From: Agreia sp. Leaf283 | GTDB lineage: Bacteria; Actinomycetota; Actinomycetes; Actinomycetales; Microbacteriaceae | DNA: 64,000 nucleotides | Assembly (NCBI RefSeq): GCF_001422485.1 | Contig: NZ_LMNF01000001.1 | Coordinates: 1,314,250-1,378,249 of the forward strand | Direction: 5' to 3' | Shown here: piece by piece, positions 4,968 through 25,819 of the stretch | Position numbering within the stretch: position 1 is the stretch's first letter | Layout: each line of letters begins with the position of its first letter | Notes under the pieces: model-generated | Databases searched by the model: none | The model's input: the letters and a program-made list of their open reading frames with translations, nothing else | Told to the model about the DNA's origin: nothing | Position numbers and translations under genes: made by a program

Positions 4968-5743
<776 letters not shown>

Positions 5744-5753
5744 CCCCCGCCCC

Positions 5754-5776
5754 CGTTCCCTGAGCCTGTTGAAGGG
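5754..5776 (-). repeat. Dispersed repeat family A, single copy
   Basis: On the reverse strand it reads CCCTTCAACAGGCTCAGGG plus AACG, one base different from the consensus CCCTTCGACAGGCTCAGGG. It stands 10 bp after the dppF-type stop codon. Other copies are at 8.8, 9.8-10.0, 12.6, 17.2, 57.0-57.1 and 57.7 kb. Confidence 0.85.
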
Positions 5777-5920
5777 AAAGCCCGACCCGCCGCGAGTCAC
5801 AGCGGAACTGACCGCGCCGCGAAGGTCACGGCGTCGAGGAGGCGGCTGCTCGAACGCATGAGAGCCGCGAAGGCCAGAAGCAGGCCGATGCTCACCACGA
5901 TCGGGCCAACGAACGGCCCT

Positions 5921-5981
5921 AATTCAGGAGGAGCGCGCACCCACGTGGATAGTGGCGCCGGCTGAGCTCTCCTCCTGAATT
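5921..5981. repeat. Palindromic repeat family B, copy 1 (61 bp)
   Basis: Perfect 13-bp arms AATTCAGGAGGAG (5921-5933) and CTCCTCCTGAATT (5969-5981) enclose 35 bp that carries GTGGATAGTGGCG at 5945-5957. A second copy at 18179-18239 has identical arms, identical total length and the same core at the same offset, while the rest of the interior differs. Confidence 0.9.
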
Positions 5982-6210
5982 GCGAACGTCACTCGGGAAG
6001 AGAGGTTCTACCTCGGGCCGAACAGCGCGTCGGATACGAGGATCAGCACAACGATGACGACGACGACGCCTTCCTCACCTCCGTCGCCGACCGTCTGGGC
6101 GTGATCATCTGTGACGGCGGCTGTTCGCCGACGCGCTCGGCGAGAACTCCTGCGTTGGGCGCCCGGGCTGCGAGGCGATTTGTTGGGCGAGTCAGCAATA
6201 TCTGTTGCGT

Positions 6211-6222
6211 CGAAGCGCTTCG
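6211..6222. promoter_or_regulatory. LacI-family operator 1 (CGAAGCGCTTCG)
   Basis: A perfect 12-bp palindrome around the AAGCGCTT core, 79 bp upstream of the LacI-type gene. The same core recurs at 6256-6263 and 7362-7369, matching the pattern expected of one regulator controlling its own gene and the adjacent importer. Confidence 0.75.
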
Positions 6223-6252
6223 CGTCGTACTCTGCTGAGAGCGCGTTCACAA

Positions 6253-6265
6253 TCGAAGCGCTTAA
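6253..6265. promoter_or_regulatory. LacI-family operator 2 (TCGAAGCGCTTAA)
   Basis: It shares the AAGCGCTT core (6256-6263) with asymmetric flanks and lies 35 bp before the LacI-type start, a typical place for autorepression. Its centre is 43 bp from that of operator 1, close to four helical turns. Confidence 0.72.
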
Positions 6266-6300
6266 ACAGACCGCACCACCCCAGACACCGGAGTCTTCTG

Positions 6301-7326
6301 ATGGCGACAATCACCGACGTGGCACAGGCCGCGGGCGTGTCGATCTCCACGGTGTCATACGCGCTCTCCGGCAAGCGGTCCATCGCAGCCTCCACGCGCC
6401 AGCGCATCATGCGGGCCATCGACGAGCTCGAGTACGAACCCAACGCCGGCGCCCGGATGCTTGCGGGCGCTCGCACGAACATCCTCGCCCTGAGCGCGCC
6501 GCTCGGCCCCGACGGCCACCTGCCGACCCACATGCGCTTCGTGACCAGCGTCGTCGAGGCGGCACGGGCGCACGACTACGACGTGCTGCTGCTCGCCACC
6601 GACGACGAGGTCTCCGGCATCCGCCGCGCCGCCTCGCGATCGCTGATCGACGGTGTCGTCATCATGGGCGTCGCCACGGTCGACGAGCGCGTGCCCCTGG
6701 TTCGGCGTCTCGGCCTTCCGTCGGCATTCATCGGGGTGCCCCCCGGCATCGACGACATGTCGTGCATCGACCTCGACTTCGATCGGGCGGGACGGGATGC
6801 CGTAGCCATGCTGGCCGACGCCGGGCATGCGGCGATCGGCGTGATCGGGCATCCGCACAGCTACGTAGACCGCGACACCAACTTCATCCGCCGGTTCACG
6901 CACGGCTTCGACGAGGAGTGCCGGGCGCGCGGTGTGCGCACGGCGACGCAGTGGCCGGAGATCGGGCGTTCGGGAGGGCAGCAGGCCTACGACCTGCTGC
7001 GCGAACAGCTCCCCGACATGACCGCCCTGGTCTTCCACTGCAACGAGCCCATCGTCGAAGGGGCGCTGCGTCGTATCAGCGAACTCGGGCTGTCGATTCC
7101 GGGCGACCTCTCGGTGCTCGCCGCGTGTGCGAGCTACGCCGCCGACGAGCTCGAGACGCCGCTGAGCGCCATTCCCCTTCCCCTCGATGAGATGTGCCAC
7201 TCGGCCGTCGAGAACGCCTTGGCCCTGGTCGACGCGCTCGGCCACCCGAAGGTCACGCTCATCGCCCCGACCTATCTCGACCGCGGCTCCATCGCCGCCC
7301 CGAAGCCCGCCGCCCACCCGGCCTGA
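6301..7326 (+). CDS. LacI family transcriptional regulator (first sugar operon)
   Basis: A 341-residue repressor. The N-terminal LacI helix-turn-helix is ATITDVAQAAGVSISTVSYA (residues 2-21), with the hinge region LEYEPNAGARMLA near residue 45-58, followed by a periplasmic-binding-protein-like sugar-sensing domain (NILALSAPLG to about residue 335). ATG 6301 is chosen because the family's conserved N-terminus begins there; an upstream in-frame start would run through operator 2. Operators with AAGCGCTT cores lie before this gene and before the next one, so it probably represses itself and the importer/GH31 operon until a xyloside-type inducer binds. The inducer is inferred from context only. 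Confidence 0.92.
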   Translation: MATITDVAQAAGVSISTVSYALSGKRSIAASTRQRIMRAIDELEYEPNAGARMLAGARTNILALSAPLGPDGHLPTHMRFVTSVVEAARAHDYDVLLLATDDEVSGIRRAASRSLIDGVVIMGVATVDERVPLVRRLGLPSAFIGVPPGIDDMSCIDLDFDRAGRDAVAMLADAGHAAIGVIGHPHSYVDRDTNFIRRFTHGFDEECRARGVRTATQWPEIGRSGGQQAYDLLREQLPDMTALVFHCNEPIVEGALRRISELGLSIPGDLSVLAACASYAADELETPLSAIPLPLDEMCHSAVENALALVDALGHPKVTLIAPTYLDRGSIAAPKPAAHPA

Positions 7327-7357
7327 CACTCGACCCGAAAGGAGTTCCGCGCGCATT

Positions 7358-7373
7358 GTCGAAGCGCTTCGAC
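7358..7373. promoter_or_regulatory. LacI-family operator 3 (GTCGAAGCGCTTCGAC)
   Basis: A perfect 16-bp palindrome, 80 bp before the binding-protein start and 31 bp after the LacI-type stop. It is the strongest of the three sites and probably controls the importer operon independently of the regulator gene. Confidence 0.82.
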
Positions 7374-7452
7374 GATCGTCGATACGCCACTCGAAACCCA
7401 CAGCACCATCGCCGGCCCGGCCGGCAACTCATCCCTACAAGGAGGTAGACAC

Positions 7453-8748
7453 ATGAAAATGAAACGCACACTCACGATGCTCACGACCGTGATCGCCGCG
7501 GGAGCCCTGCTCTCGGGCTGCTCGGCCGGAGCGTCAGAAGAGGACGCCAACACGCTGAAGCTATGGCACTTCGAGGGCGAGGACAGCGCGATGGGCATCG
7601 CATGGGACGAGGCCATCAAGACGTTCGAGAAGGAGACCGGCGCGAAGGTGGAGTTCGAGGCGAAGAGCTTCGAACAGATCCGCTCGACGGCCAGCCAGGT
7701 GCTCAACTCGAACGAAGCCCCCGACATTCTCGAATACAACAAGGGAAACGCCACGGCGGGTCTGCTGGCCAGCCAGGGACTGCTCACCCCGATCGATGAT
7801 GCCGTCGAGGAGTACGGGTGGGCCGACAAGCTCGCCCCGTCACTGCAGACGACCGCGCGCTACGACGACAAGGGCGTCATGGGCTCGGGCTCCTGGTACG
7901 GGATCCCGAACTACGGCGAGTTCGTCGAGGTCTACTACAACAAGGACATGTTCGCGAAGTACGGCATCGCCGTGCCCACGACCTACGACGAGTTCGAGGC
8001 CGCCCTGCAGACGTTCGTCGACAACGGCGTGACACCACTGGCCGAGGCCGGCGCCGAGTACCCCATCGGACAGCTCTGGTATCAGCTCGCACTCTCCAAG
8101 GGCGACCGAGACTTCGTCGACGACTACCAGCTCTACAAGAACCCGGTCGACTGGCAGGGTCCAGAGCTCAGCTACGCCAGCGAGAAGCTCGCAGAGTACG
8201 TCGACAAGGGCTACATCTCGAAGGATGTCACGGGCATCAAGGCCGAGGACATGGGCGTCTCGTTCATGTCGGGCCAGTATCCGATCATGGTGTCGGGCTC
8301 GTGGTGGTACGGACGCGTCATCAACGAGGCCACCGGCTTCGACTGGGGAACTTTCCTCTTCCCCGGATCGGAGATGGCTCCCGGCTCCAGTGGAAACCTG
8401 TGGGTGGTTCCCGAGAACGCTGCCAATAAGGATCTGGCGTACAAGTTCATCGACATCACCATGCGTCCGGAGATCCAGGCCCTCATCGGCAACAACGGTG
8501 GCGTGCCCGTCGCGGCGAACACAGAGGACATCACCGACCCGAAGAGCCAGGAGCTGATCGCCAACTTCAACACGCTCACCGAGCGTGACGGGCTGGCGTT
8601 CTACCCCGACTGGCCCACCTCGACGTTCTACGACCAGATCGTGGCGGCGACGCAGGAGCTGCTCAACGGCTCGACCACCCCGGAGGAGATGAACACCACG
8701 CTCGGCGACGAGTACGAATCCGGCGTGGCGGACATCACAGGCGAATAG
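7453..8748 (+). CDS. Carbohydrate ABC transporter substrate-binding lipoprotein (SBP family 1)
   Basis: This 431-residue binding protein starts at ATG 7453 behind a strong AAGGAGG site (7440-7446). The signal peptide ends in the lipobox L-S-G-C with the lipidated cysteine at residue 23. The mature chain begins LKLWHFEGED and contains FVEVYYNKDMFAKYGIAVP, the standard signature of CUT1 sugar-binding proteins. It delivers a sugar to the two permeases downstream. The following alpha-xylosidase suggests an alpha-xyloside such as isoprimeverose or a xyloglucan fragment; this is inference. A long hairpin between this gene and the permeases may keep its mRNA level higher than theirs. Confidence 0.93.
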   Translation: MKMKRTLTMLTTVIAAGALLSGCSAGASEEDANTLKLWHFEGEDSAMGIAWDEAIKTFEKETGAKVEFEAKSFEQIRSTASQVLNSNEAPDILEYNKGNATAGLLASQGLLTPIDDAVEEYGWADKLAPSLQTTARYDDKGVMGSGSWYGIPNYGEFVEVYYNKDMFAKYGIAVPTTYDEFEAALQTFVDNGVTPLAEAGAEYPIGQLWYQLALSKGDRDFVDDYQLYKNPVDWQGPELSYASEKLAEYVDKGYISKDVTGIKAEDMGVSFMSGQYPIMVSGSWWYGRVINEATGFDWGTFLFPGSEMAPGSSGNLWVVPENAANKDLAYKFIDITMRPEIQALIGNNGGVPVAANTEDITDPKSQELIANFNTLTERDGLAFYPDWPTSTFYDQIVAATQELLNGSTTPEEMNTTLGDEYESGVADITGE

Positions 8749-8765
8749 TCCTCTCGTCCCCTCGC

Positions 8766-8813
8766 CCTTCGACGGGCTCGGGGAACGAACCCGTTCCCCG
8801 AGTCCGCCGAAGG
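8766..8813. repeat. Repeat family A, inverted pair forming a 22-bp stem
   Basis: Two family A copies face each other: 8766-8787 and 8792-8813, matching at 20 of 22 positions, with a four-base AACC loop. In mRNA this is a very stable hairpin between the binding-protein stop (8748) and the first permease (8856). There is no T tract, so it is more likely an mRNA-processing or stabilising barrier than a classic terminator. Confidence 0.88.
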
Positions 8814-8855
8814 CCCCCCACTTCACTCCCTCAGACCGCACGAAAGGGACACCCC

Positions 8856-9821
8856 ATGGCAACGCTGCCACCCGCCCCCGTCATCGCACGGAGTCGCCGA
8901 GCACCGGAGATGAGCCTGCTCCCCGGAGTGCGAAAACGAGGCTTCTGGCTCTACCTGATCCCCGGCCTCGTGCTGTTCACGATCATCATCCTCGTTCCCC
9001 TCATCTGGAACATCTACCTCAGCTTCACGTCGTACCGCGGCATCCGCCCGCCAGAATTCATCGGTCTCGACAACTGGGCCAAACTCATGGGCGACGACAA
9101 GTTCTGGGTCTCGTTCCAGAACAGCGTCGCCATGATCGTCGCGATGGTCGTAGTGCCGACCCTCGCCGGCCTGGTGCTTGCCGCCCTCCTCTTCGACCTC
9201 GTCGGCAAGAAGTTCGGCGGCAGGCTCGCGAGCTTCCTCCGCGCCACCTACTACCTGCCCCAGATTCTGCCCGTGGCCATCGCCGCGATCGTGATCGGCT
9301 GGATCCTGCGGCCCGAGAACGGGGCGCTCAACACGGTTCTGGAGACGATCGGCCTGGGATCCCTGCAGCACAACTGGCTGGGCAGTCCCGATACGGCCCT
9401 GGCCAGCGTGATGGTCGTGATGGTCTGGGTGCAGATCGGCTACCCGGTCGTGATCTTCATGGCCGCGCTCCAGCGCGTCGACCCGGAACTCTACGAGGCC
9501 GCCGAGCTCGACGGTGCCAACTGGTTCCAGCGCTTCACGTCGATCACCGTCAGCATCATCCGCCCCGAGATCTACGTGGTGGTGCTCACTGCGACGATCG
9601 CGGCCCTCAAGGTGTTCGGCCCGATCTACGCCCTCACCCGCGGCGGCCCGGGCAACTCCACGATCGTGCCCAGCTACTACTCGTACAGCGAGTTCTTCCA
9701 GAGCCAGCAGGTGGGCTACGGAGCGACGATCGCCACCGCGCTGACCGTCGTCGTCGTCGCGATCACGATCATCTTCATCCTCGCCCAGAACCGCGCAGAA
9801 CGTTTGGAGAACGAACGCTGA
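8856..9821 (+). CDS. Carbohydrate ABC transporter permease, MalF/UgpA type
   Basis: A 321-residue inner-membrane subunit starting at ATG 8856 with a GAAAGGG site. The first helix, YLIPGLVLFTIIILVPLIWN, follows a short basic N-terminus. The EAA loop is ELYEAAELDGANWFQRFTSI (about residues 210-229), as in CUT1 permeases. It pairs with the next permease, whose start overlaps this stop by one base. No ATPase is encoded in the operon, so a shared MsmK/UgpC-like ATPase elsewhere in the genome presumably drives transport. Confidence 0.93.
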   Translation: MATLPPAPVIARSRRAPEMSLLPGVRKRGFWLYLIPGLVLFTIIILVPLIWNIYLSFTSYRGIRPPEFIGLDNWAKLMGDDKFWVSFQNSVAMIVAMVVVPTLAGLVLAALLFDLVGKKFGGRLASFLRATYYLPQILPVAIAAIVIGWILRPENGALNTVLETIGLGSLQHNWLGSPDTALASVMVVMVWVQIGYPVVIFMAALQRVDPELYEAAELDGANWFQRFTSITVSIIRPEIYVVVLTATIAALKVFGPIYALTRGGPGNSTIVPSYYSYSEFFQSQQVGYGATIATALTVVVVAITIIFILAQNRAERLENER

Positions 9822-10816
9822 TGACCTCGACAATGCAACGCCCTTCGACGGGCTCAGGGAACGACGGCTCAGGGAACGACGGCTCAGGGAACGACGGTTC
9901 AGGGAACGACGGCTCGGGAAGCGGACGCTCGGGCAACGACCGCCCTTCGACGGGCTCAGGGAACGCGAGGCTCAAGCCGCACCGGCAGAAGCCGCGCCGC
10001 ACCGTCGGCGACTGGATCCTGCTGATCGCCGTGATCGTGGTCGCCGTGCTGGTCGCGGTGCCGTTCCTCATCATTCTGGTGAACTCGTTCAAGTCGCCCT
10101 CGGACTATGCCAACGGCGGGCCGCTCAGCCTCCCGACCAACATCTACCTCGACGGAATCGCGAGCTTCTGGCAGCGGGTCAACTTTCCCGAGAAGCTCTG
10201 GAACAGCTTCTTCATCAGCGGAACCGTGGCCGTCTTCGCCGTGATCGTCTCGGTCTTCAACGCCTACGCCATCGGCATCGGCCGGGTGAAGGGCCGTGTC
10301 TGGGTTCTGGTGCTCTTCATGATCGCCAACACGCTGCCGCAGGAGGCGATGCTCTACCCGCTGTACTTCATGTTCAAGCAGGTCGGCCTCTACGACAACG
10401 TGTGGAGCGTCATCATCATCTTCACCGTCGTGCAGAGCGCGTTCGGCACCTATCTGCTGTCGGCGGTCTTCGGAACGTTCCCGAAGGAGATCATCGAGGC
10501 AGCCTCGCTCGACGGCGCCAACCGCTGGCAGATCCTGCGACGCGTCGTCGTGCCCATCAGCCGTCCGACACTCTCGGTGCTGCTGATCTTCTTCTTCATC
10601 TGGACCTGGAACGAGTTCCTCATCCCTCTCACCTTCCTGGTGTCGAACGCGAACCAGACGGTTCCGGTCGCGATCACGGCCCTGCAGGGCGACAGGCTGA
10701 TGGATGTGACGACCACGAGTGCGTCGGCCCTGCTCGGTCTGATTCCCACCCTCATCTTCTTCCTCATCTTCCAACGCACGTTGACCCGCGGAATCACCGC
10801 CGGTTCGACCAAGTAA
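9821..10816 (+). CDS. Carbohydrate ABC transporter permease, MalG/UgpE type, with repeat-derived N-terminus
   Basis: The second permease (331 residues). The conserved part starts near residue 60 (TVGDWILLIAVIVVAVLVAV) and carries the EAA loop EIIEAASLDGANRWQILRRV. The first ~50 residues are unusual: RPSTGSGN at both ends enclose several tandem NDGSG units, encoded by two family A repeats and 15-bp tandem repeats at 9841-9965. Typical MalG-type permeases have only a short cytoplasmic N-terminus. The single-base overlap with the preceding stop (TGATG) supports ATG 9821, so the repeats are probably translated as a flexible cytoplasmic tail. Confidence 0.9.
   Translation: MTSTMQRPSTGSGNDGSGNDGSGNDGSGNDGSGSGRSGNDRPSTGSGNARLKPHRQKPRRTVGDWILLIAVIVVAVLVAVPFLIILVNSFKSPSDYANGGPLSLPTNIYLDGIASFWQRVNFPEKLWNSFFISGTVAVFAVIVSVFNAYAIGIGRVKGRVWVLVLFMIANTLPQEAMLYPLYFMFKQVGLYDNVWSVIIIFTVVQSAFGTYLLSAVFGTFPKEIIEAASLDGANRWQILRRVVVPISRPTLSVLLIFFFIWTWNEFLIPLTFLVSNANQTVPVAITALQGDRLMDVTTTSASALLGLIPTLIFFLIFQRTLTRGITAGSTK
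9841..9965 (+). repeat. Two family A repeats flanking 15-bp tandem repeats, inside a permease gene
   Basis: Full family A copies are at 9841-9863 and 9943-9965. Between them the 15-bp unit GACGGCTCAGGGAAC is repeated about four times with small changes (9863-9922), then degenerates. The unit is the 3' half of the family A sequence, so the array looks like slippage or duplication from one inserted copy. The total length keeps the reading frame. Confidence 0.88.
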
Positions 10817-10845
10817 CAACACGCAGTGCACATTAAGGGGCATAT

Positions 10846-13146
10846 ATGAAGTTCACCGACGGTTTCTGGCAGCTGCGCCCCGGCGTCACCCCCCTCTACG
10901 CGCAGGAGGCGTATGACATCTGGCCGGAGGGCGAGAACGGCATCGTCGTGACCGCGCCGACGATGGTCATCGAGAAGCGGGGCGACGTGCTGAACCGTCC
11001 CGTGCTCACCGTGGCGCTGTCGTCGCCGCTGCCGAACATCATCGGGGTGAAGGTCTCGCACTTCTCCGGAGGTCGCGACGAGCTGGGCTTCGACCTGCTC
11101 GGGGCGCAAGACGGGCACGGCGTCGTCGAGGTCTCCGACGAGCGGGGCGTGCTCACCTCGGGTGACCTGAGTGTCACGGTGCAGAAGGGCGCGCCCTACG
11201 GGCTCAGCTTCTCCGCGGGTGGGCGGGTGCTCACGACAGCGGGTCCGAAGTCGACCGCGCACATGCAGGTGCGACCGGATGCGCAGCTCGACGGCGCCCC
11301 GGTCGGCAATGCGCGTGGCGGCACGGCCCGCGCCTTCGCCCCGAACTACACGGTTCAGCAGCTGTCGCTGGGCGTGGGCGAATTGGTCTACGGGCTCGGC
11401 GAGCGCTTCGGTCCGCTCGTGAAGAACGGGCAGACGGTCGACGTGTGGAACGCCGACGGTGGCACGTCGAGCGAGCAGGCCTACAAGAACGTGCCGTTCT
11501 ACCTCACGAACCGCGGCTACGGCGTACTCGTCAACAACCCCGGCCACGTCTCCTTCGAGATCGGCTCCGAGTCGGTCGAGCGCGTGCAGTTCTCGGTCGC
11601 AGGCGAGGGCCTCGAGTACTTCGTCATCCACGGCGAGACGCCCGCCGAGATCCTCGAGCGGTACACCGCCCTGACCGGCCGCCCGGCCCACGTGCCCGCG
11701 TGGTCGTTCGGCCTGTGGCTGTCCACATCGTTCACCACCTCGTACGACGAGGAGACGGTCTCGTCGTTCATCGACGAGATGGCCGCGCGCGAACTGCCCG
11801 TGAGCGTCTTCCACTTCGACTGCTTCTGGATGCGCGAGTTCAACTGGTGCGACTTCGAGTGGGACCCGAGAGTGTTCCCCGATCCTGAGGGCATGCTGTC
11901 GCGCCTGCACGACAAGGACCTGCACATCTGCGTGTGGATCAACCCGTACATCGCGCAGCGCTCTCCCCTGTTCGCCGAGGCGAAGGAGGCGGGCTTCCTC
12001 GTGAAGCGCCCCGACGGCTCGGTCTGGCAGTGGGACCTGTGGCAGGCGGGCATGGGGCTCGTCGACTTCACCAACCCCGGCGCGACGGAGTGGTTCAAGG
12101 ACAAGCTGCGCGTGCTGCAACGCCAGGGAGTCGATGCCTTCAAGACCGACTTCGGCGAGCGCATCCCGTTGGAGGTCGACTACTTCGACGGCTCGAGCCC
12201 GGAGCGCATGCACAACTACTACGCGCAGCTCTACAACAAGGCCGTGTTCGAGGTGCTCGAAGAGGAGCGCGGCGTCGGCGACGCCGTGCTGTTCGCGCGG
12301 TCGGCGACGGTCGGCGGGCAGAGCCTTCCCGTGCACTGGGGCGGGGACTCCACGTCGACCTACGAGTCGATGGCCGAGACGCTGCGCGGCGGGCTGTCGC
12401 TGGCGTTCAGCGGCTTCGGCTTCTGGAGCCACGACATCGGAGGCTTCGAGGGCACGCCCGACGCGGGGGTCTTCAAGCGCTGGACCGCCTTCGGCCTGCT
12501 GTCGAGCCACAGTCGCTTCCACGGCTCGAACTCGCACCGCGTGCCGTGGGCATTCGACCCGTCGACAGGCTCAGGGCAGACCGAAGCAGAAGACAGCGCA
12601 ACGAACGTCACCCGCTTCTTCACAAACCTCAAGCTCCAGCTGATGCCGTACCTCTATGCCGCCGGGCTCGAGGCCACGCGGCGGGGAACGCCGATCCTGC
12701 GCCCGATGGCGCTCGAGTTCCCCGACGACAGGGGTGCCGCACACCTCGACACCCAGTACATGCTCGGGCGTGACCTGCTGGTGGCGCCGGTCTTCTCCGA
12801 GTCGGGCGAGGTCGAGTTCTACCTGCCGGCCGGGCGCTGGACGAACTACTTCACGGGAGAGGTCGTCGCCGGCGGCGGCTGGCGCACCGAGCAGCACGGC
12901 TTCCTGTCGCTGCCGCTGTATGTGCGCGAGGGGGCCGTGCTCCCGGTCGGCGCGCGATCCGATCGACCCGACTACGACTACCTCGACGGCCTCGAGCTGC
13001 GGGTGTACCCCGGGCCGGACGGCGAGACCTCGGTCACGGTGACCGCTCCGGATGGCCGCGCCGCCACGTTCACGGTGACGCGCTCCGGCGGCACCGCCAC
13101 CGTGGCATCCGAGTCGGGGGTGGTCGTCACGACCACCGTCGTCTGA
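10846..13146 (+). CDS. yicI: Alpha-xylosidase, glycoside hydrolase family 31 (YicI-like)
   Basis: This 766-residue cytoplasmic enzyme should release alpha-linked xylose from imported oligosaccharides. The GH31 nucleophile is in KTDFGE (Asp435) and the acid/base in HWGGDSTST (Asp501). Their 66-residue spacing equals that of E. coli YicI (Asp416 and Asp482 from the literature). The N-terminal beta-sandwich (to about 270), the barrel (KEAGFLVKRPDGSVWQWDLW, WSHDIGGFEG) and the C-terminal beta domains all look complete. A family A repeat is read in frame as PSTGSGQ near residue 572, in the loop between RVPWAF and the VTRFF helix, making that loop about a dozen residues longer than in YicI. The start is ATG 10846 after an AAGGGG site. 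Confidence 0.93.
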   Translation: MKFTDGFWQLRPGVTPLYAQEAYDIWPEGENGIVVTAPTMVIEKRGDVLNRPVLTVALSSPLPNIIGVKVSHFSGGRDELGFDLLGAQDGHGVVEVSDERGVLTSGDLSVTVQKGAPYGLSFSAGGRVLTTAGPKSTAHMQVRPDAQLDGAPVGNARGGTARAFAPNYTVQQLSLGVGELVYGLGERFGPLVKNGQTVDVWNADGGTSSEQAYKNVPFYLTNRGYGVLVNNPGHVSFEIGSESVERVQFSVAGEGLEYFVIHGETPAEILERYTALTGRPAHVPAWSFGLWLSTSFTTSYDEETVSSFIDEMAARELPVSVFHFDCFWMREFNWCDFEWDPRVFPDPEGMLSRLHDKDLHICVWINPYIAQRSPLFAEAKEAGFLVKRPDGSVWQWDLWQAGMGLVDFTNPGATEWFKDKLRVLQRQGVDAFKTDFGERIPLEVDYFDGSSPERMHNYYAQLYNKAVFEVLEEERGVGDAVLFARSATVGGQSLPVHWGGDSTSTYESMAETLRGGLSLAFSGFGFWSHDIGGFEGTPDAGVFKRWTAFGLLSSHSRFHGSNSHRVPWAFDPSTGSGQTEAEDSATNVTRFFTNLKLQLMPYLYAAGLEATRRGTPILRPMALEFPDDRGAAHLDTQYMLGRDLLVAPVFSESGEVEFYLPAGRWTNYFTGEVVAGGGWRTEQHGFLSLPLYVREGAVLPVGARSDRPDYDYLDGLELRVYPGPDGETSVTVTAPDGRAATFTVTRSGGTATVASESGVVVTTTVV
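12559..12579 (+). repeat. Repeat family A, in-frame copy in the GH31 gene
   Basis: The stretch GTCGACAGGCTCAGGGCAG matches the family A core with small changes. It encodes PSTGSGQ in a surface-loop position of the alpha-xylosidase. Confidence 0.8.
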
Positions 13147-13156
13147 CGCGCGCGAA

Positions 13157-13215
13157 CGCGGGTGTTCGCGCGCACCGCGGTGGCGAAACCACCGCGCCGC
13201 GCGCGAACACCCGCG
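13157..13215. repeat. Palindromic repeat family C, copy 1 (nested hairpin)
   Basis: Outer arms of 17 bp are perfect (13157-13173 and 13199-13215, reading CGCGGGTGTTCGCGCGC and its complement). Inside is a second perfect 8-bp stem CGCGGTGG/CCACCGCG around a five-base loop. It lies between the convergent GH31 and symporter genes and may end transcription from both sides. A related copy is at 21429-21495. Confidence 0.9.
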
Positions 13216-13230
13216 CAGGGCGCGCCCGAC

Positions 13231-14655
13231 TCAGCGGCGCGGCGCCGCCTTCGTGGGCTCGACTCCCGTGAGGGCGTGCAGGGAGGCGGTCGACGGAACC
13301 GCCGGGTCGGCGTCCGCCGCCGCCACCTCGGCCGGGGCGTCCGACGCGTGCGCATCCGGGTTCATGCTCGACTCCTGGAACGGGTCGTTGCCGCCCAGAA
13401 CGTTGCGCACCTGACCCTTGTCGACCTCGCCGGTCCACGTTCCGACGAGGAGCGTCGCCACAGCGTTGCCGGTGAAGTTCGTCACGGCGCGGGCCTCCGA
13501 CATGAAGCGGTCGATTCCCACGATCACGCCCACGCCGTCGACCAGGTCGGGACGGAACGACTGCAGCCCGCCGGCGAGCGTCGCAAGCCCGGCGCCGGTG
13601 ACCCCGGCGGCCCCCTTCGAGGCGATCATCATGAACAGCAGCAGGCCGATCTGCTCGCCGATTGTCATCGGGGTTCCCATGGCGCTGGCGATGAACAGCG
13701 ACGCCATCGTCAGGTAGATGGCCGTGCCGTCGAGGTTGAACGAGTAGCCGGTGGGAACGGTGATGCCCACGACCGGCTTCGAGACGCCGAGGTGCTCCAT
13801 CTTCGCGATGAGGCGGGGAAGCGCGGCCTCCGACGACGAGGTTCCGACGATGAGCAGGTACTCGCGGGCCAGGTACTTCATCAGCGAGAAGATGTTCACG
13901 CCCGTGACGAGCTTGAGCAGCGTTCCGAGAACGACGATCACGAAGATCGCGCACGTCACGTAGAAGCCGATCATCAGGGTGGCGAGTGCAACGACGGCGC
14001 CCCAGCCCGTGGAGCCCACGACGCCCGCGATGGCGCCGAACGCGCCGAGCGGGGCGACCCACAGAACCATCGACAGGATGCGGAAGACCAGCGCCTGCAG
14101 AGACTTGATCGCTCCGAGGATGGGCGCGCCCTTGTCGCCCATCTTCTGCAGCGCGAAGCCCACGAGCAGCGCCACGAACAGGGTCTGCAGGATGCTGCCG
14201 TCGACGAGCGAGGAGAAGAGCGACACGGGGATGATGCCGAGGAAGAAGTCCTCCGTCGACTCGGCGACGATGTTGCTCGTGTCGTAGCTCGCAGCCGAGA
14301 TGTCGAGGCCCTCACCCGGATGCAGCAGGTTGCCCACCACGAGGCCGATCGCCAGGGCGAACGTCGACATCACGATGAAGTAGCCCAGCGCCAGGCCGCC
14401 GACCTTGCCCACGGTCGCGGCCTTCGCGATGGAGCCGACGCCGATCACGATCGTGCAGAAGATGATCGGCGCGATCATCATCTTGATCAGGCCGACGAAC
14501 GCGGTGCCGATCGGGGCCAGCGTCTTGGCGAACTCGGGAACGACGAGCCCGACGATGACGCCGGCCACCACGGCGATGATCACCGCGATGTAGAGATAGT
14601 GGTTCTTGTCGAGCTTCTTGCGGGTCTTGCGGCCCGATGCCGATGTGGTGCTCAT
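13231..14655 (-). CDS. Dicarboxylate/amino acid:cation symporter (DAACS family, DctA/GltP-like)
   Basis: A 474-residue inner-membrane carrier starting at ATG 14655, whose conserved chain begins at KNHYLYIAVIIAVVAGVIVG. DAACS signatures are present: IKMMIAPIIFCTIVIGVGSI early, the hairpin serine cluster VGTSSSEAALPRLIAKMEHLG, and PTGYSFNLDGTAIY in the seventh helix region. It imports C4-dicarboxylates or acidic amino acids with protons or sodium. The divergent neighbour is a CitA/DcuS-like two-component system, which favours dicarboxylates such as malate, succinate or fumarate. An in-frame ATG at 14685 would add ten residues. Confidence 0.92.
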   Translation of the reverse strand: MSTTSASGRKTRKKLDKNHYLYIAVIIAVVAGVIVGLVVPEFAKTLAPIGTAFVGLIKMMIAPIIFCTIVIGVGSIAKAATVGKVGGLALGYFIVMSTFALAIGLVVGNLLHPGEGLDISAASYDTSNIVAESTEDFFLGIIPVSLFSSLVDGSILQTLFVALLVGFALQKMGDKGAPILGAIKSLQALVFRILSMVLWVAPLGAFGAIAGVVGSTGWGAVVALATLMIGFYVTCAIFVIVVLGTLLKLVTGVNIFSLMKYLAREYLLIVGTSSSEAALPRLIAKMEHLGVSKPVVGITVPTGYSFNLDGTAIYLTMASLFIASAMGTPMTIGEQIGLLLFMMIASKGAAGVTGAGLATLAGGLQSFRPDLVDGVGVIVGIDRFMSEARAVTNFTGNAVATLLVGTWTGEVDKGQVRNVLGGNDPFQESSMNPDAHASDAPAEVAAADADPAVPSTASLHALTGVEPTKAAPRR

Positions 14656-14846
14656 GGAATGCCTGCCTTCGTGAGGGGCCGCCACAACACCGTGGCGACT
14701 CTGCCTGAACTACTGAGGTCATCCTGCGCGCGACCACGACGCAGGAGGCGGTTGTGTTCATACTGTTCGCGATCCGGTCGACGGAAGGGCCCGGCGACGC
14801 GTAGCGTAGGGCGGCAGAGGCGCGACGGAGCGCGAAGGAGCTGCAG

Positions 14847-16478
14847 ATGAACGGTCGACGACGACGGGTCAGCATCGCCGCTCGGCTGTTCGCCGTGCAG
14901 GCCGTGTTCGTGATCGTGGCCGTCGGCCTCGCCGTCGCGCTGCTGGCTCTGGATGCCCGTGGCCGGTCCACCGAGGACGCGTCGACGCGCAGCATGGTCA
15001 CCGCCCAGGCCGTCGCCCACAACCCGTTCGTGATCGACGCCGTGCAGCAGCCGGATCCCTCCGCCGTGCTGCAGCCCTATGCCGTGACCCTGATGGACGA
15101 CACCGACGTCGACTTCATCACCGTGATGGCCCCGGATCGCACGCGGTACACGCACCGCGATTCCGAGCAGATCGGCAAGAAGTTCCTGGGCACGATCGCC
15201 CCCGCGCTCGCGGGTGAGAGCTTCACCGAGACGTACACCGGCACCCTCGGGCCGTCGGTACGCGCGGTCGCACCGATCATCGGGGCCGACGGAAGTGTCG
15301 TGGCCCTCGTCTCGGCCGGCATCACGCTGAGCCAGGTCGACGCCGCATTCTGGCCCCGGGTGCACCTGCTGCTGGTAGCCGGCGCCGCGATGATCGCGGT
15401 GGGCGCGCTCGTGTCGTGGCTGTTCAGCCGCTACCTGCGCCGGGTCACGGCGGGCCGCGGAGCAGAGGAGCTCGGCCAGGTGTTCGCCTACTACGAGTCG
15501 GTGCTGCACTCCGTGCGCGAGGGCCTGGTGCTCGTCGACGCCCGAGGGGTGCTCGTGCTCTACAACGACCACGCGGCCGATCTGCTCGGCCTCACCCCGG
15601 GCGGCCCCGAGCGGCCGGTCGACGAGCTCGACATCCCGGCGTCGCTCAAGTCCCTGCTGTTGAGCGAGGGCGAGGCGCGCGACGAGGTCTTCGTGACTCG
15701 CGACCACGTGCTCGTCGTGAACCATCAGCCGGCCCTGCCGCCCGAGACCCAGGGCGGCTCGGGCCGCATCCGGTCTCTCGGAACCGTCACCACGCTGCGC
15801 GACCGCACCGAACTGCTGCGGGTCACCGGCGAGCTCGAGTCGATGCGCACGATGAGCGATGCGCTGCGCTCGCAGACCCACGAGTTCGCCAATCGCCTGC
15901 ACACCATCGCGTCGCTGCTCGAGCTGGGCAGAAGCGACGAGGCGCTGCGCTTCGCCGCCGACGAGCTCAACCTCAGCCAGCGGCTCGCCGACCGCGTGCT
16001 GGTCTCGATCGACGAACCCGTGATCGCCGCCCTGATGCTCGGCAAGGCGGCCCAGGCGCGCGAGCGCGGGGTGGCGCTCAACCTCGAGACGCACCTCGAG
16101 CCGGGCACGCAGGGCTTCGAACCGGCTGACGTCGTGACGATCCTCGGCAATCTCGTCGACAACGCGCTCGACGCGGCCGCATCCGGAACCGCCCCCGGCA
16201 CCGAGCCGTGGGTCGAGGTCTACCTCGGCCTGGGCGACGGCGAGGACGACCTCGTGGTGCAGGTCTCGGACTCGGGCCCGGGTATCGACTACGAGGCGCG
16301 CGAGCGGGTGTTCGGGCGCGGGTTCTCGACGAAAGAATCGGATGCCTTCGGCCGGGGCCTCGGGCTGGCCCTCGTTCGGCAGACGGTCGCCCGGCTCGGC
16401 GGGGTCATCGAGCTGAGCGAGCACGTGGGCGCCGTGTTCACGGTGACTCTGCCGATGCCCGCGCGGGTCGAGTCGTGA
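14847..16478 (+). CDS. CitA/DcuS-type sensor histidine kinase
   Basis: A 543-residue membrane kinase starting at ATG 14847 with a GAAGGAG site. Two helices (about residues 15-36 and 172-193) bracket an extracellular PAS-like domain with the dicarboxylate/citrate-binding pattern RTRYTHRD...IGKKFLGT (residues 98-115). A cytoplasmic PAS domain follows (about 215-320). The phosphorylated histidine is His345 in SQTHEFANRLHTI, the form found in CitA/DcuS kinases. The ATPase part shows NLVDNALDAA (N box), DSGPGI (G1) and GRGLGLALV (G2). It should report external organic acids to the response regulator encoded 13 bp downstream. Confidence 0.94.
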   Translation: MNGRRRRVSIAARLFAVQAVFVIVAVGLAVALLALDARGRSTEDASTRSMVTAQAVAHNPFVIDAVQQPDPSAVLQPYAVTLMDDTDVDFITVMAPDRTRYTHRDSEQIGKKFLGTIAPALAGESFTETYTGTLGPSVRAVAPIIGADGSVVALVSAGITLSQVDAAFWPRVHLLLVAGAAMIAVGALVSWLFSRYLRRVTAGRGAEELGQVFAYYESVLHSVREGLVLVDARGVLVLYNDHAADLLGLTPGGPERPVDELDIPASLKSLLLSEGEARDEVFVTRDHVLVVNHQPALPPETQGGSGRIRSLGTVTTLRDRTELLRVTGELESMRTMSDALRSQTHEFANRLHTIASLLELGRSDEALRFAADELNLSQRLADRVLVSIDEPVIAALMLGKAAQARERGVALNLETHLEPGTQGFEPADVVTILGNLVDNALDAAASGTAPGTEPWVEVYLGLGDGEDDLVVQVSDSGPGIDYEARERVFGRGFSTKESDAFGRGLGLALVRQTVARLGGVIELSEHVGAVFTVTLPMPARVES

Positions 16479-16491
16479 GGGGGTTCGGGCC

Positions 16492-17184
16492 ATGATCAGG
16501 GTGCTGATCGTCGAGGACGAGGTGCTGACGGCCGAGGCGCACGCCCTCTATGTGGGCAGGCTCGACGGCTTCGAGGTCGGCGGAATCGCGCACACCGGTG
16601 CCGAGGCGGTGCGGCTGCTCAAGGCGTCGCTGGGCGAGACAGCCGAGCGCATCGACCTCATTCTGCTCGACATGAACCTGCCCGACATCGACGGGCTGGA
16701 GCTGTGCCGGCGCATCCGCGCGGGCGGGGTCGACGTCGATGTGATCGCCATCACGGCGGTGCGCAGTGCCGAGGTGGTGCGGGCGTCGATCGCGGCGGGC
16801 ATCGTGCAGTACCTCATCAAGCCGTTCACGTTCGGGGTGTTCACCGACAAGCTCACGAGCTACCGCGATTTCCGCAGCCTGTTCGCGCAGTCGCCGACCG
16901 TGGCGAGCCAGAGGGATGTCGACGGTGCGTTCGCGGCGCTGCGCACGTCGAACGACCCCGGCCTCGGAAAGGGGCTGAGCCCGGAGACGCTCAGTGCCGT
17001 GTCGACCCTGCTGCTCGAGTCGAGCGGGGGAGTGTCGGCGCGGGAGCTGGCCGAGGAGATCCGTGCGTCGCGGGTGACGGCACGGCGGTACCTGGAGTAC
17101 TTGGCCGACTCGGGTCGCGCCGACAGGGCGCCGCGTTACGGCACGCCGGGCCGCCCCGAGGTGGAGTACCGCTGGCGCGCGTGA
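16492..17184 (+). CDS. CitB/DcuR-type response regulator
   Basis: A 230-residue regulator. The receiver domain begins IRVLIVEDE, with acidic residues at 8-10, the phosphoacceptor Asp60 in LLDMNLPDIDG, and the conserved lysine in YLIKPFTFG. The C-terminal winged helix-turn-helix contains ARELAEEIRASRVTARRYLE, as in DpiA/CitB and DcuR. Together with the kinase just upstream it probably activates the divergent dicarboxylate symporter gene. Confidence 0.94.
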   Translation: MIRVLIVEDEVLTAEAHALYVGRLDGFEVGGIAHTGAEAVRLLKASLGETAERIDLILLDMNLPDIDGLELCRRIRAGGVDVDVIAITAVRSAEVVRASIAAGIVQYLIKPFTFGVFTDKLTSYRDFRSLFAQSPTVASQRDVDGAFAALRTSNDPGLGKGLSPETLSAVSTLLLESSGGVSARELAEEIRASRVTARRYLEYLADSGRADRAPRYGTPGRPEVEYRWRA

Positions 17185-17203
17185 CCGCCCTGCGCCGGTC
17201 GCT

Positions 17204-17226
17204 CGTTCCCTGAGCCTGTCGAAGGG
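17204..17226 (-). repeat. Repeat family A, single copy
   Basis: On the reverse strand this is a perfect copy of the consensus core TTCGACAGGCTCAGGGAA. It lies 20 bp after the response-regulator stop, directly abutting the 46-bp direct repeat. Confidence 0.87.
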
Positions 17227-17229
17227 CGG

Positions 17230-17275
17230 CCTATTCGACCAGCTACTCCCGGATGGTCGTCACGACGTCGACGAT
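17230..17275 (-). repeat. 46-bp exact direct repeat, displaced copy of a gene 3' end
   Basis: Identical to 17532-17577. The second copy contains the last codons of the reverse-strand gene ending at 17545 (reading IVDVVTTIRE then stop) plus 13 bp beyond. This copy therefore repeats the C-terminal coding end without a gene attached, 302 bp away, as after a tandem duplication followed by loss or insertion between the copies. Confidence 0.92.
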
Positions 17276-17437
17276 GCGGCGGCTTCGTGGCCTACTCGAC
17301 AGCGCAATGGGCGGAGATGGGCACATCCGACCCGAATACTGCGTTGGTGTGGCGTATCTCCGCCCATTCGCCAGGTTGGGCGGAGACGTCGAGCTGCCGG
17401 CTGCCTCTGCGTCCCGGTATGCGCCGGTCGCGTAACA

Positions 17438-17501
17438 CACTGAAGTGCGGAAGGTGGCCGCTTCGCCGACGGTTGATGCGGCCACTTTCCGCACCTCAGT
17501 G
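17438..17501. repeat. Inverted repeat, 24-bp arms around a 16-bp loop
   Basis: Arms at 17438-17461 and 17478-17501 match at 22 of 24 positions (left arm CACTGAAGTGCGGAAGGTGG followed by CCGC). No second copy was found in this window. It could be another REP-like unit or a terminator for the converging genes. Confidence 0.85.
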
Positions 17502-17531
17502 ACACGGTGGCCTCGATACGGACGCAGGCGA

Positions 17532-17577
17532 CCTATTCGACCAGCTACTCCCGGATGGTCGTCACGACGTCGACGAT
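17532..17577 (-). repeat. 46-bp exact direct repeat, copy at the gene 3' end
   Basis: The partner of 17230-17275. Positions 17545-17577 are the last eleven codons of the reverse-strand hypothetical gene, and 17532-17544 is its immediate downstream sequence. Confidence 0.92.
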
Positions 17578-18147
17578 CGAGGGGGCGGGCGGGGCCGATC
17601 CGAATCCGAAGGTCACCGGCGGATCGAGCGGGGTCATCGCGCCCAGGCTTTCACCCGAACGGGTCGCCACGACGTCGTCGAGATCCCGGATGAGCGTCAC
17701 CCCGTAGAACTCCCGCCTCCCGTTGCCCGCCGTGCCGGCCGTGTGCACTCCCGCCACGAGGCGGCTCGCGACGGGATCGATCACCCGGAGCCACGCCGGA
17801 TGCGTCGCGACCAGCGACGGCACCACGCGCAGCAGCCGGCCGAGCGTCGAGAGGCCGCCCACGCGCATCCGCACCGACAGGTCGCCCGCGGTCACCGCGA
17901 TGCCGCCGTCGACGCGCCTCGTCGTTATGGGCACCACCCTCACCTCGTCGAACGAGTACGTCGACGACACGAATTCGGCGATCTCGTCGCTCGGAGCGAG
18001 CAGCGTGCGGTGGCCGTCGACATCTTGCAGCATCACGTCGGTGAAGGCGCCGAGCGGCGACTCGGCCCAGATGCCCACGACGATTCGAGTGCCCGACGCC
18101 GTGCCGAAGCCGGCTATGCGACCAGTGAAGCGGTGTTCGGTGACCAT
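17545..18147 (-). CDS. Conserved hypothetical protein of unknown function
   Basis: A 200-residue soluble protein from ATG 18147 (MVTEHRFTGRIAGFGTASG). An ATG at 18177 would add ten residues; neither has a clear ribosome site. It contains short beta-rich stretches (RIVVGIWAESPLGAFTDVML, RTLLAPSDEIAEFVSSTY) and a middle part with RVDGGIAVTAGDLSVRMRVG. I recall similar proteins only as unnamed actinobacterial conserved genes, and I see no catalytic motif. Its 3' end is duplicated at 17230-17275, and a family B palindrome sits just upstream of its start. Confidence 0.75.
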   Translation of the reverse strand: MVTEHRFTGRIAGFGTASGTRIVVGIWAESPLGAFTDVMLQDVDGHRTLLAPSDEIAEFVSSTYSFDEVRVVPITTRRVDGGIAVTAGDLSVRMRVGGLSTLGRLLRVVPSLVATHPAWLRVIDPVASRLVAGVHTAGTAGNGRREFYGVTLIRDLDDVVATRSGESLGAMTPLDPPVTFGFGSAPPAPSIVDVVTTIRE

Positions 18148-18178
18148 CGGGCCAGCATAGGCGTCGAGGCTCGTCATC

Positions 18179-18239
18179 AATTCAGGAGGAGAGCTTAGCC
18201 GTGTGGATAGTGGCGTCGGCGATGCGCTCCTCCTGAATT
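18179..18239. repeat. Palindromic repeat family B, copy 2 (61 bp)
   Basis: Arms AATTCAGGAGGAG (18179-18191) and CTCCTCCTGAATT (18227-18239) are identical to copy 1. The core GTGGATAGTGGCG is at 18203-18215, the same offset. It lies between the GntR stop (18242) and the hypothetical gene start, both on the reverse strand. Confidence 0.9.
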
Positions 18240-18241
18240 GG

Positions 18242-18928
18242 TCACGCATGAGTCTGTGCTGGCAGCAGCTGCGCCCGGCGCCAGTCGTTCGTGGCGACGG
18301 CGTCTTGCAGTCGCTCGTGGGTTCCGCGGATGTGCTCGGCGATCAATGTCGTGGCGAGCTCGGCGTCGCGCCCGCGCACGGCGTGCAGGATGCGCCGGTG
18401 CTCGTCGCGCGCGTAGCTGCGGGCCTCGGGCGAGCGGGCTTCGAGCCAGCGGGTTCTCTCGAGGCGGCGCAGGGAGGCGGCGACCGCCGTGCCGAAGAAC
18501 GGATTGCCGGCGAGCTCCGCGAGGCGGGCGTGGAAGTCGCCTCCCGCCTGCACGCTGTCACCGGCGGCGCTCGAATCTGCGGCGTCGTTCAGCTCGTCTG
18601 CCAGCTCATCGAGCTGCTCGTCGGATGCCCTCCGCACGGCCAGTCGGGCCGCCGCGGTCTCGATCGCCTCGCGGTATTCGGCGAGCTGCGCGATCTCGTC
18701 GAGGTCGATCGGCGCCACCGCGTAGCTGCGGCCGTCGCGGCGCACGAGACCCTCGGCCTCGAGACGAACGAGCGCGGCGCGCACGGGGGTTCTGGATGCC
18801 TGGAATCGCGACTCGAGGCCGCGTTCGGCCAGGCTCTGGCCGGGCAGCAGCTCGAGGGTCAGGATCGCGGTGCGCAGTCGTTCGTACAACTGCGCCGTCT
18901 GGGATGAGCGCTCGACGTCGTCGGCCAT
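18242..18928 (-). CDS. GntR family transcriptional regulator (FadR/FCD type)
   Basis: A 228-residue regulator. The winged helix-turn-helix covers about residues 10-75 (LRTAILTLELLPGQSLAERG, then ASRTPVRAALVRLEAEGLV). The FCD effector domain follows, with the helical pattern YREAIETAAARLAV and metal-ligand-type residues in DFHARLAELAGNPFF and DEHRRILHAV. ATG 18928 follows an AAGGAG site 11 bp upstream. It is divergent from an MFS transporter, and a perfect inverted repeat lies between them. FCD regulators usually respond to organic or sugar acids, so the transporter may carry such a compound. Confidence 0.92.
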   Translation of the reverse strand: MADDVERSSQTAQLYERLRTAILTLELLPGQSLAERGLESRFQASRTPVRAALVRLEAEGLVRRDGRSYAVAPIDLDEIAQLAEYREAIETAAARLAVRRASDEQLDELADELNDAADSSAAGDSVQAGGDFHARLAELAGNPFFGTAVAASLRRLERTRWLEARSPEARSYARDEHRRILHAVRGRDAELATTLIAEHIRGTHERLQDAVATNDWRRAQLLPAQTHA

Positions 18929-18980
18929 GGGTGTCCCTGCTCCTTGCCTGATTCTTCAGCGCGGTTGCGGCATTCAGCAA

Positions 18981-19005
18981 TTGGTATACCGTAATGGTAT
19001 ACCAA
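18981..19005. promoter_or_regulatory. GntR/FCD operator (TTGGTATACC-N5-GGTATACCAA)
   Basis: Perfect 10-bp arms around GTAAT, centred between the divergent GntR (18928) and MFS (19044) genes. Each arm also contains the smaller palindrome GGTATACC. FCD-type regulators typically bind GGTATACC-like sites, so this is very likely the autoregulatory operator of the adjacent GntR protein. Confidence 0.85.
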
Positions 19006-19043
19006 TGTGCCTCCTCCCGGAGGTCGGACGAAGGAACGGCCCC

Positions 19044-20330: not shown

Positions 20331-20348
20331 GCTGCCTGGTGCCCGTGA

Positions 20349-20396
20349 CGACGGATGTTGCCGGTGGCCTGGGCACATCCGTCGCCAAGGGCAACG
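20349..20396. repeat. Palindromic repeat family D, copy 1
   Basis: Arms CGACGGATGTTGCC (20349-20362) and GGCACATCCGTCG (20372-20384) pair with one bulge. It fills the gap between the convergent MFS and DMT genes. Related copies are at 37138-37197 and, in opposite orientation, 52119-52178. Confidence 0.85.
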
Positions 20397-20397
20397 T

Positions 20398-21366: not shown

Positions 21367-21428
21367 GGGTTCACGGTATCGGTAGCGGCGGACTGGCTCT
21401 AGCGGGATTCCGACGTCACAGTGCCAGT

Positions 21429-21495
21429 CGAGCGCAGGTGTTCACGCCATGCGCGGTGGCTGAACCACCGCGTTCGACGCGAACACCCGCGCTCG
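21429..21495. repeat. Palindromic repeat family C, copy 2 (nested hairpin)
   Basis: The outer arms pair at 17 of 20 positions (21429-21448 with 21476-21495). The inner stem CGCGGTGG/CCACCGCG (21452-21459 and 21465-21472) is identical to copy 1 at 13157-13215, again with a five-base loop. It lies upstream of the DMT gene and downstream of the flotillin gene. Confidence 0.87.
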
Positions 21496-21519
21496 ATGGA
21501 GGGTGCTAGCTGGAAGGTG

Positions 21520-22977: not shown

Positions 22978-23011
22978 GTACTGGGCTTCCTCTCTGTAGG
23001 GGACTATGGCT

Positions 23012-23500: not shown

Positions 23501-23593
23501 GCGGCACCTTTCGTGTCGTAGCTCTTCTAGCATGCCCTAACGAGGGGTGCCCTGTCAGGTCTTGCGCGCTGCGAGCGCGCCGACGACACGGTC

Positions 23594-23860: not shown

Positions 23861-23871
23861 GCTCCGATCAT

Positions 23872-23887
23872 TCGAATATATGTTCGA
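23872..23887. promoter_or_regulatory. LexA-type SOS box (TCGAAT-ATAT-GTTCGA)
   Basis: It differs from the symmetric actinobacterial SOS consensus TCGAAC-N4-GTTCGA at one position. It is 12 bp upstream of the reverse-strand small gene (23860) and 155 bp upstream of the forward-strand gene at 24042, so it could serve one or both. Confidence 0.75.
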
Positions 23888-25800: not shown

Positions 25801-25819
25801 TGCTAGCGTCATCCCATCG

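Follow-up and report, generated by a model that had tools for sequence, protein, structure and literature searches.

The 64,000-nucleotide stretch of Agreia sp. Leaf283 DNA analysed here (the window) contains two similar palindromes, which raises the question of what kind of element they represent and what maintains it. A sequence-only reading had described perfect 13-bp arms, a common length of 61 bp and the sequence GTGGATAGTGGCG at equal offset, all of which, positions included, was borne out for both copies (Table 1). Our preferred reading, to which we assign a probability of roughly 0.4, is that the palindromes form a REP/BIME-like family at gene 3' ends, the Agreia form of which would be a dyad for a putative sequence-specific factor; its transcription and function are likewise putative.

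Table 1. Features of the two palindromes and of the genes next to them
Feature	Position	Strand	Basis
Copy 1, full near-palindrome, 75 bp, CG...CG, core oriented +	5914..5988	+	family model
Left 13-bp arm, copy 1	5921..5933	+	sequence
Right 13-bp arm, copy 1	5969..5981	-	sequence
Core GTGGATAGTGGCG, copy 1	5945..5957	+	sequence
Copy 2, full near-palindrome, 75 bp	18172..18246	+	family model, orthologues
Left 13-bp arm, copy 2	18179..18191	+	sequence
Right 13-bp arm, copy 2	18227..18239	-	sequence
Core GTGGATAGTGGCG, copy 2	18203..18215	+	sequence
Likely ABC-transporter ATPase gene flanking copy 1	end at 5743	+	name by eye
LacI-like regulator gene, downstream of copy 1	6301..7326	+	name by eye
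Function-unassigned gene, start 24 bp past the 75-bp unit of copy 2	17545..18147	-	
GntR-like regulator gene, stop end overlapping outer 5 bp of copy 2	18242..18928	-	by eye

The two palindromes and their neighbours

Conservation extends beyond the 61 bp, the full unit being a palindrome of 75 bp. The window contains four exact arms, all of them inside copy 1 or copy 2. The sequence-only reading also had a reverse-strand frame starting immediately beyond each copy. Such frames do adjoin both copies on the right (6008-6310 and 18242-18928), but in their reading direction they end there, and the former, a mechanical ORF of 100 aa, is probably no gene; the description fits copy 2 only, and on its left, where the start of the minus-strand gene was picked by comparison with relatives. 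Searched against Rfam, the whole window yielded a single match above the gathering threshold, a tRNA, and six family loci yielded none over threshold.

A conserved family in the genus

When the 3.98-Mb genome of the strain (G000) was searched for the arm pattern, 20 exact arms were found, compared to none for a reversed control pattern. Every one of them opens or closes a 61-bp element, the partner arm having at most two mismatches. With a 14-copy model, which was applied to 150 of 5199 first-look candidates, 19 copies were detected in G000; for the weakest, E was 2e-14 on the strand that matched better and 5e-6 on the opposite one, and the next match scored 0.08. Model R2, which derives from Agreia and includes base pairs, gave E=2e-16 for copy 1 and E=2e-20 for copy 2. 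The 61-bp span is exact in 63 of the 64 copies extracted (a set excluding two model-found copies, G006 copy 94890 and G004 copy 127573), the remaining one being 60 bp. A replichore polarity of the asymmetric core was considered and rejected, as the best-match strands of the 19 G000 copies (14 plus, 4 minus, 1 symmetric) do not switch consistently.

The family extends to related genomes: it was detected in six of the eight genomes of the genus, several copies being at orthologous places, and was not detected in G002 and G007. Copy 2 has orthologous copies in G001, G003, G004, G005 and G006. Between orthologous copies the arms change far less than the variable interior (19/576 versus 103/528 differences in 24 pairs with verified flanks, each scored in whichever orientation gave fewer differences), which supports selection, the first part of the earlier claim of selection on structure. 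For all 26 pairs tried the values are 22/624 and 116/572; the two pairs left out are doubtful (1063027/L064, and G006 106489/G003 1180045, about 1 kb apart by shared flanks). Among the 24, 698690/L077 was paired through a flank of 49 bp; possible further pairs, e.g. L057 of G003 and the 60-bp copy of G005, each against G000, were left unused. Arm conservation is inflated because the patterns and models used to find copies demand arms; in G004, all 13 copies found with a tolerant model also carry exact 10-bp inner arms.

That the outer halves are kept almost letter for letter suggests, as far as sequence comparison goes, that the palindromes are a working site. The core reads CGCCAYAG in G006 as opposed to GTGGATAG in G000 in all five orthologous pairs compared, two of which involve near-identical G006 neighbours, and such a switch is not easily squared with the simple upkeep of a binding site.

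Gene ends and RNA hairpins

A stop codon lies at most 30 bp away in 26 of 38 copies. Sides facing a gene 3' end number 24/38 in G000 and 25/38 in G006, versus a fraction of 0.426 by random placement, and a 3'-facing gene is present at all ten loci examined from other genera. The junctions of the 38 copies are convergent in 15 cases, tandem in 19 and divergent in 4, compared to 13, 34 and 23, respectively, of 70 control junctions in G000 (Fisher P = 0.02 for convergent and 0.01 for divergent, uncorrected). This preference could stem from avoidance of promoters. Where a neighbouring gene faces the element with its 5' end, the median distance to its start is 69-79 nt. Neither this distance nor the prevalence of 3'-end flanks suits the ribosome site that the sequence-only reading imagined being exposed or hidden in a transcript, and since the AGGAGG is moreover base-paired in each of the four folds predicted for copies 1 and 2, that candidate was rejected.

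Placement after stop codons would agree with plain 3'-end RNA hairpins, i.e. bidirectional terminators or stabilisers of mRNA 3' ends that need no dedicated protein and resemble each other in letters through shared ancestry, a reading that we consider rather unlikely. The hairpins predicted are strong, with z-scores of -3.2 to -10.4 in the five Agreia folds run, and the arms are predicted to fold from either strand. In a 62-row Agreia alignment the covariation score was reached by 9 of 500 shuffles (of the 64 extracted copies, alignment A4 omits the 60-bp one and one with seven arm mismatches). Both the either-strand hairpin, which would allow for a role as RNA, and this score count against reading the element as a protein dyad. 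The Agreia copies have no T-tract, ending in ...CCTGAATT followed by mixed sequence, and hence do not show the GC hairpin plus T-tract of a terminator. This is weak counter-evidence, since canonical terminators with stem and T-tract are rare at sampled gene ends in both genera (3/82 in G000, 0/23 in G006 and 3/77 in G274). Also against plain hairpins, letters are conserved beyond the needs of pairing, length is nearly constant, the unpaired core is conserved, and the copies are confined to one chromosome region. In addition, pairing in the Agreia interior is level with that of halves shuffled among copies, so that the selection on structure claimed earlier is not seen there.

The same layout, CAGG...CCTG over 53 bp, recurs in six other genera. 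An exact 53-bp span was found in 10 of 20 one-per-genome loci outside the genus, five from genus g64 and five from other genera. In g64 the span is 53 bp in 17 and 54 bp in 4 of 21 copies (alignment A6 omits one of the 22 copies of A5, L188, which is close to L174). The g64 copies have T-tracts on both sides, and their stem covariation was reached by 0 of 500 shuffles, the rows having been picked with a structure-aware model. Judged by covarying stem and flanking T-tracts, they look like bidirectional intrinsic terminators, in line with the hairpin reading. Model R3, made solely from g64 copies, matches both window copies (copy 1, E=4e-12 on the minus and 7e-12 on the plus strand; copy 2, E=1e-15). 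As the g64 copies had been selected with R2, this is no independent discovery, and the g64 covariation leans towards pairing.

Signs of mobility

A further possibility, close to the small mobile unit of the sequence-only reading, is that of REP/ERIC-like non-autonomous mobile repeats, spread by a putative transposase and now decaying; we regard it as improbable. The copies are multiple and intergenic and come in lineage-specific sequence versions, as such repeats might. Two G006 copies 1028 bp apart differ at a single position, a relative has another repeat or palindrome at two of the copy positions, and two loci show an offset of about 0.9-1 kb, measured against common flanks, between the copies of two species; these observations could also be read as traces of movement. 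In contrast, no target-site duplication of at least 3 bp is evident among 64 sites: cross-border k-mers of at least 4 match in at most 2 and 3-mers in at most 4 of them (boundary offsets 0-15). CG flanks both outer edges in 37 of the 64 sites, indistinguishable from the palindrome itself, so that a 2-bp duplication could hide there. No clean empty site was seen in six orthologous copy-less regions, several of which are too diverged to judge; the 698690 comparison was not counted because a G004 copy lies about 0.9 kb away. Many copies are orthologous between species, with constrained arms. Plasmid and phage records searched with copy 2 gave no match at E 0.01. Viral carriage was rejected, as the ORFs of the one viral contig matching the pattern look unrelated by eye.

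Distribution along the chromosome

The 19 copies detected in G000 all lie within 750 kb of one contig, which is 19% of the genome. Likewise, all 19 detected in G006 fall in the span from -591 to +639 kb around dnaA, i.e. in the origin half, and the largest copy-free arc there covers 64% of the chromosome, which was matched in 0 of 100000 simulations. Flank matches place 6/7 copies of G003, 4/4 of G001 and 3/3 of G005 in the syntenic region, in a comparison mainly of stretches taken around copies; the seventh G003 copy could not be placed by flanks, yet is 68 kb from dnaA. A control repeat of the strain's own genome is found on at least three contigs among the matches listed. The origin was set by dnaA searches, GC skew being too noisy in G000 and G274. 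Confinement to one origin-side region is the unusual feature of this palindrome family.

These figures would suit DNA sites of an origin-domain organiser, with a logic like that of nucleoid-occlusion or macrodomain sites and absent from the terminus half, to which we give the lowest probability of all readings weighed here. In g64 the origin-half bias is only mild (9/13, 9/12 and 13/22 copies), and two of the three genomes have copies opposite dnaA. Furthermore, 11.5% of random reference points in G006 fit as well as dnaA, the syntenic placements come mainly from stretches around copies, and the family was not found in two of the eight genus genomes. Origin-side DNA may also be more syntenic, so that old features survive there. 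A related version, in which the 75-bp palindromes would be sites of a putative actinobacterial protein marking the origin-side half in nucleoid occlusion or domain organisation, and would have been recruited in Agreia from older bidirectional 3'-end terminators, is very improbable.

Proposed role

In the dyad reading that we prefer, gene-3'-end palindromes of Microbacteriaceae would rest on the 53-bp CAGG...CCTG dyad. The Agreia form, with T-tract and per-copy covariation missing, would be defined by what is held between copies, namely half-site letters, span and 13-bp core. A putative sequence-specific factor, probably dimeric, may bind both half-sites, which at 53 bp would be spaced by about five helical turns, and would act in the origin-side domain, at 3' and convergent gene junctions. 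Once bound, it might block read-through or anchor DNA, and this might also account for the confinement. If a bound factor explains both confinement and letter upkeep, the sites would offer a way to study how actinobacteria organise chromosome domains. More modestly, one palindrome layout resembles a terminator with a covarying stem in one genus but a letter-conserved dyad in another, and these contrasting forms make a change from terminator to binding site testable.

Comparison with known systems

Literature searches, judged by titles and abstract openings, returned no published account of this palindrome family. ERIC elements of enterobacteria are single long imperfect intergenic palindromes of about 127 bp at modest copy number, reported to be mobile with a TA target. 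The Agreia element is likewise one long imperfect intergenic palindrome at modest copy number, but a footprint of TA-target mobility was not seen at its copies. Noc and SlmA sites and matS are sequence-specific and limited to one part of the chromosome, as is the Agreia family; they measure about 13-20 bp, however, whereas the Agreia element is 75 bp and its factor only putative. Corynebacterium glutamicum is described in PMC3566199 as being without recognisable Min and nucleoid occlusion.

Inverted uptake sequences can form bidirectional intrinsic terminators, according to PMC2267715, with an inverted conserved word after gene ends. The palindromes resemble these in such a word, and the g64 form also in its T-tracts on both sides, which the Agreia form lacks. 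Unlike DNA uptake sequences, of which many single copies occur genome-wide, all 20 exact arms in G000 sit in palindromic elements.

In the sample surveyed in PMC6006769, Actinobacteridae had only IS200-type TnpA of subclass 1.1. REP/BIME units, as given in PMC3733652, measure 20-40 bp, compared to 53-75 bp for the Agreia units with their 61-bp arm span. The Agreia family further differs in its low copy number (19), its near-constant span with an internal core, its origin-side confinement and the absence of a constant GTAG/CGTC tag; CGTC is found in the left outer part of 9 of the 18 G006 copies listed, and the tag is inconstant in G000 and g64. PMC3733652 also describes REP/BIME of the GTAG and CGTC families as intergenic palindromes downstream of genes, preferentially at convergent and tandem junctions and touching stop codons, and in each of these respects the Agreia palindromes are alike.

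The element and its copies in the genome

Both palindromes described in the sequence-only reading are exact as it stated them, and alignment of 14 own-genome copies shows that conservation runs beyond their 61 bp as far as a flanking CG on each side, which gives a near-palindrome of 75 bp. Using a sequence-only model, 19 copies were identified in the 3.98-Mb genome (G000). On its better strand the weakest of them scores E=2e-14; the next match, which is not a copy, has E=0.08. All 19 fall within the 582-1332 kb interval of contig C1, and this model finds none on the contigs carrying dnaA (C4) and a dif-like site (C2). The control repeat CCTTCGACAGGCTCAGGGAAC occurs on C1, C2 and C3 among the matches listed, so that repeats in general are not confined in this way; with 197 + 199 own-genome matches (up to one mismatch) versus 4 in the relative G006, it is a lineage-specific expansion. 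Terminators of the canonical type, a hairpin plus T-tract, show no enrichment in window positions 5000-24000 (3, versus a shuffle mean of 5.9, sd 2.4).

Palindromic features of the window (R2, search model from Agreia copies with base pairs included)
Feature	Positions	Remarks
Element, copy 1	5914-5988	
Element, copy 2	18172-18246	
Palindrome of CCTTCGACAGGCTCAGGGAAC type	8766-8813	
Palindrome of CCTTCGACAGGCTCAGGGAAC type	57041-57111	
Palindrome of CCTTCGACAGGCTCAGGGAAC type	57689-57737	
Palindrome GTGCGGAAGGTGGCCGC...GCGGCCACTTTCCGCAC	17431-17506	Between convergent ORFs; R2 E=5.5e-5; probably a separate 3'-end palindrome family
Inverted repeat with common words GACGGATGT/ACATCCGTC or ACATCCGC	20340-20393	Possibly the other palindrome family of the sequence-only reading
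Inverted repeat, same words	37137-37196	As preceding
Inverted repeat, same words	25771-25849	As preceding

Distribution in the genus and on the chromosome

At E<=1e-5 the model detects the family in six of the eight genus genomes, with 19 copies each in G000 and G006, 13 in G004, seven in G003, three in G005, and four plus one partial match in G001; no copy was detected in G002 and G007. Named matches to the arm pattern are Agreia sp. PsM10, Agreia sp. Leaf210, Agreia bicolorata and Subtercola boreus.

In G006 the chromosome forms a single contig of 3.37 Mb, on which dnaA is found at 1 kb and the dif-like site at 1439 kb. Measured from dnaA, the copies are spread over +93 to +639 kb on one side and -591 to -169 kb on the other. 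None of 100000 simulations reached an empty arc as large as the observed maximum, 64% of the chromosome, and 11.5% of random reference points match dnaA in smallness of mean distance; clustering is therefore secure, and centring on the origin less so. By synteny, the placeable G000 copies fall in the same region. An organiser of the origin domain would account for such placement, and we consider it very unlikely. A region traversed by G000 contig C1 corresponds in synteny to the DNA on either side of the G006 origin, while the origin region itself is missing from C1 and lies on C4, which may reflect a rearrangement or an assembly artefact.

Inheritance and possible change of place

Of 26 presumed orthologous pairs compared, a flank recheck kept 24. 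In these, 19/576 arm positions differ versus 103/528 in the variable interior, a contrast that is an upper estimate because the pairs are non-independent and the searches favour intact arms; the outer part differs at 97/384 positions and the core at 36/312. The ten G000-G004 pairs among them differ at 2/240 arm and 28/220 interior positions. The low interior difference in the 11 G000-G004 pairs first used (0.13 versus 0.36 over all copy pairs) indicates copies inherited in place; for the five G000-G006 pairs (0.30 versus 0.35) it is not significant (P 0.13).

That the copies are relics of a mobile repeat seems distinctly unlikely. No target-site duplication of at least 3 bp is evident in 64 sites, albeit a 2-bp duplication could be hidden by the CG found at both outer edges in 37 of them, which belongs to the palindrome. 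Six orthologous regions without a copy yielded no clean empty site, several being too diverged to judge; they hold other sequence, which in two of them is a different repeat or palindrome. At two loci, the positions of the copies in two species are offset by about 0.9-1 kb when shared flanks are taken as reference, which a strictly inherited site leaves unexplained. Near 15042-15163 of locus L162 (G004), a different palindrome, GCAACTCAGGAAA...TTTTCCTGAGTTGC, occupies the place of G000 copy 752621. Two G006 copies (C1 2872376 and 2873404, locus L096), 1028 bp apart, show one difference over 77 bp, and a G000 pair with the same spacing is diverged, which suggests local homogenisation.

Gene context

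Genes were called with a purpose-written hexamer caller trained on G000. In G000 and G006 together, the neighbouring gene has its 3' end towards the copy on 49 of the 76 flanks (control 0.426, binomial P 1e-4). A stop codon lies at most 30 bp away in 26 of 38 copies (control 0.421, P 9e-4) or within 16 bp in 13/19 G000 and 7/19 G006 copies (control 0.338; P 0.01 together). The 38 copies occupy 15 convergent, 19 tandem and 4 divergent junctions, compared to 13, 34 and 23, respectively, among 70 control junctions of G000.

Relatives outside the genus, and pairing versus letters

With 12 candidates scored per genome, matches at E<=1e-4 were obtained in 26 of 398 Microbacteriaceae genomes, which represent 14 of 85 genera. 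Twenty loci outside the genus were listed, one per genome. In ten of them the span from CAGG to CCTG equals the 53 bp of Agreia exactly (five from genus g64, one each from five other genera), and each of these ten is flanked by a gene that faces it with its 3' end; in three more the span is 54 or 55 bp, and the remaining seven, with longer spans or lacking these words, may be unrelated palindromes. Three single-contig g64 genomes carry 13, 12 and 22 copies, mildly biased to the origin half (9/13, 9/12 and 13/22; pooled uniform-placement P 6e-4, near neighbours merged), and the largest empty arc is unusual in one of them only (G070, P 3e-4, versus 0.48 and 0.77). A model from g64 copies only, themselves chosen with the Agreia-derived R2, recovers both window elements.

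In g64 the stem is bordered on its outer sides by A- and T-tracts and shows compensatory changes reached by 0/500 shuffles, as bidirectional terminators would be expected to. For the Agreia copies, plain RNA hairpins are rather unlikely. Covariation over the whole alignment (62 rows) is marginal, reached by 9/500 shuffles, and the interior has no excess pairing (0.684 versus 0.670 with right halves redealt among copies, P 0.15). The core GTGGATAGTGGCG is incapable of self-pairing, and GTGGATAG is exact in 17/19 G000, 9/12 G004, 5/7 G003, 3/3 G005 and 1/4 G001 copies; it is in none of 18 in G006, where the core is palindromic. We propose, with a probability of roughly 0.4, that the Agreia dyad would be recognised by a putative sequence-specific factor, the most likely reading. 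As judged from sequence, these observations are consistent with one family of palindromes at gene 3' ends, which resembles bidirectional terminators in one genus and in the origin-side region of Agreia is maintained as a dyad with conserved letters and a nearly constant span.
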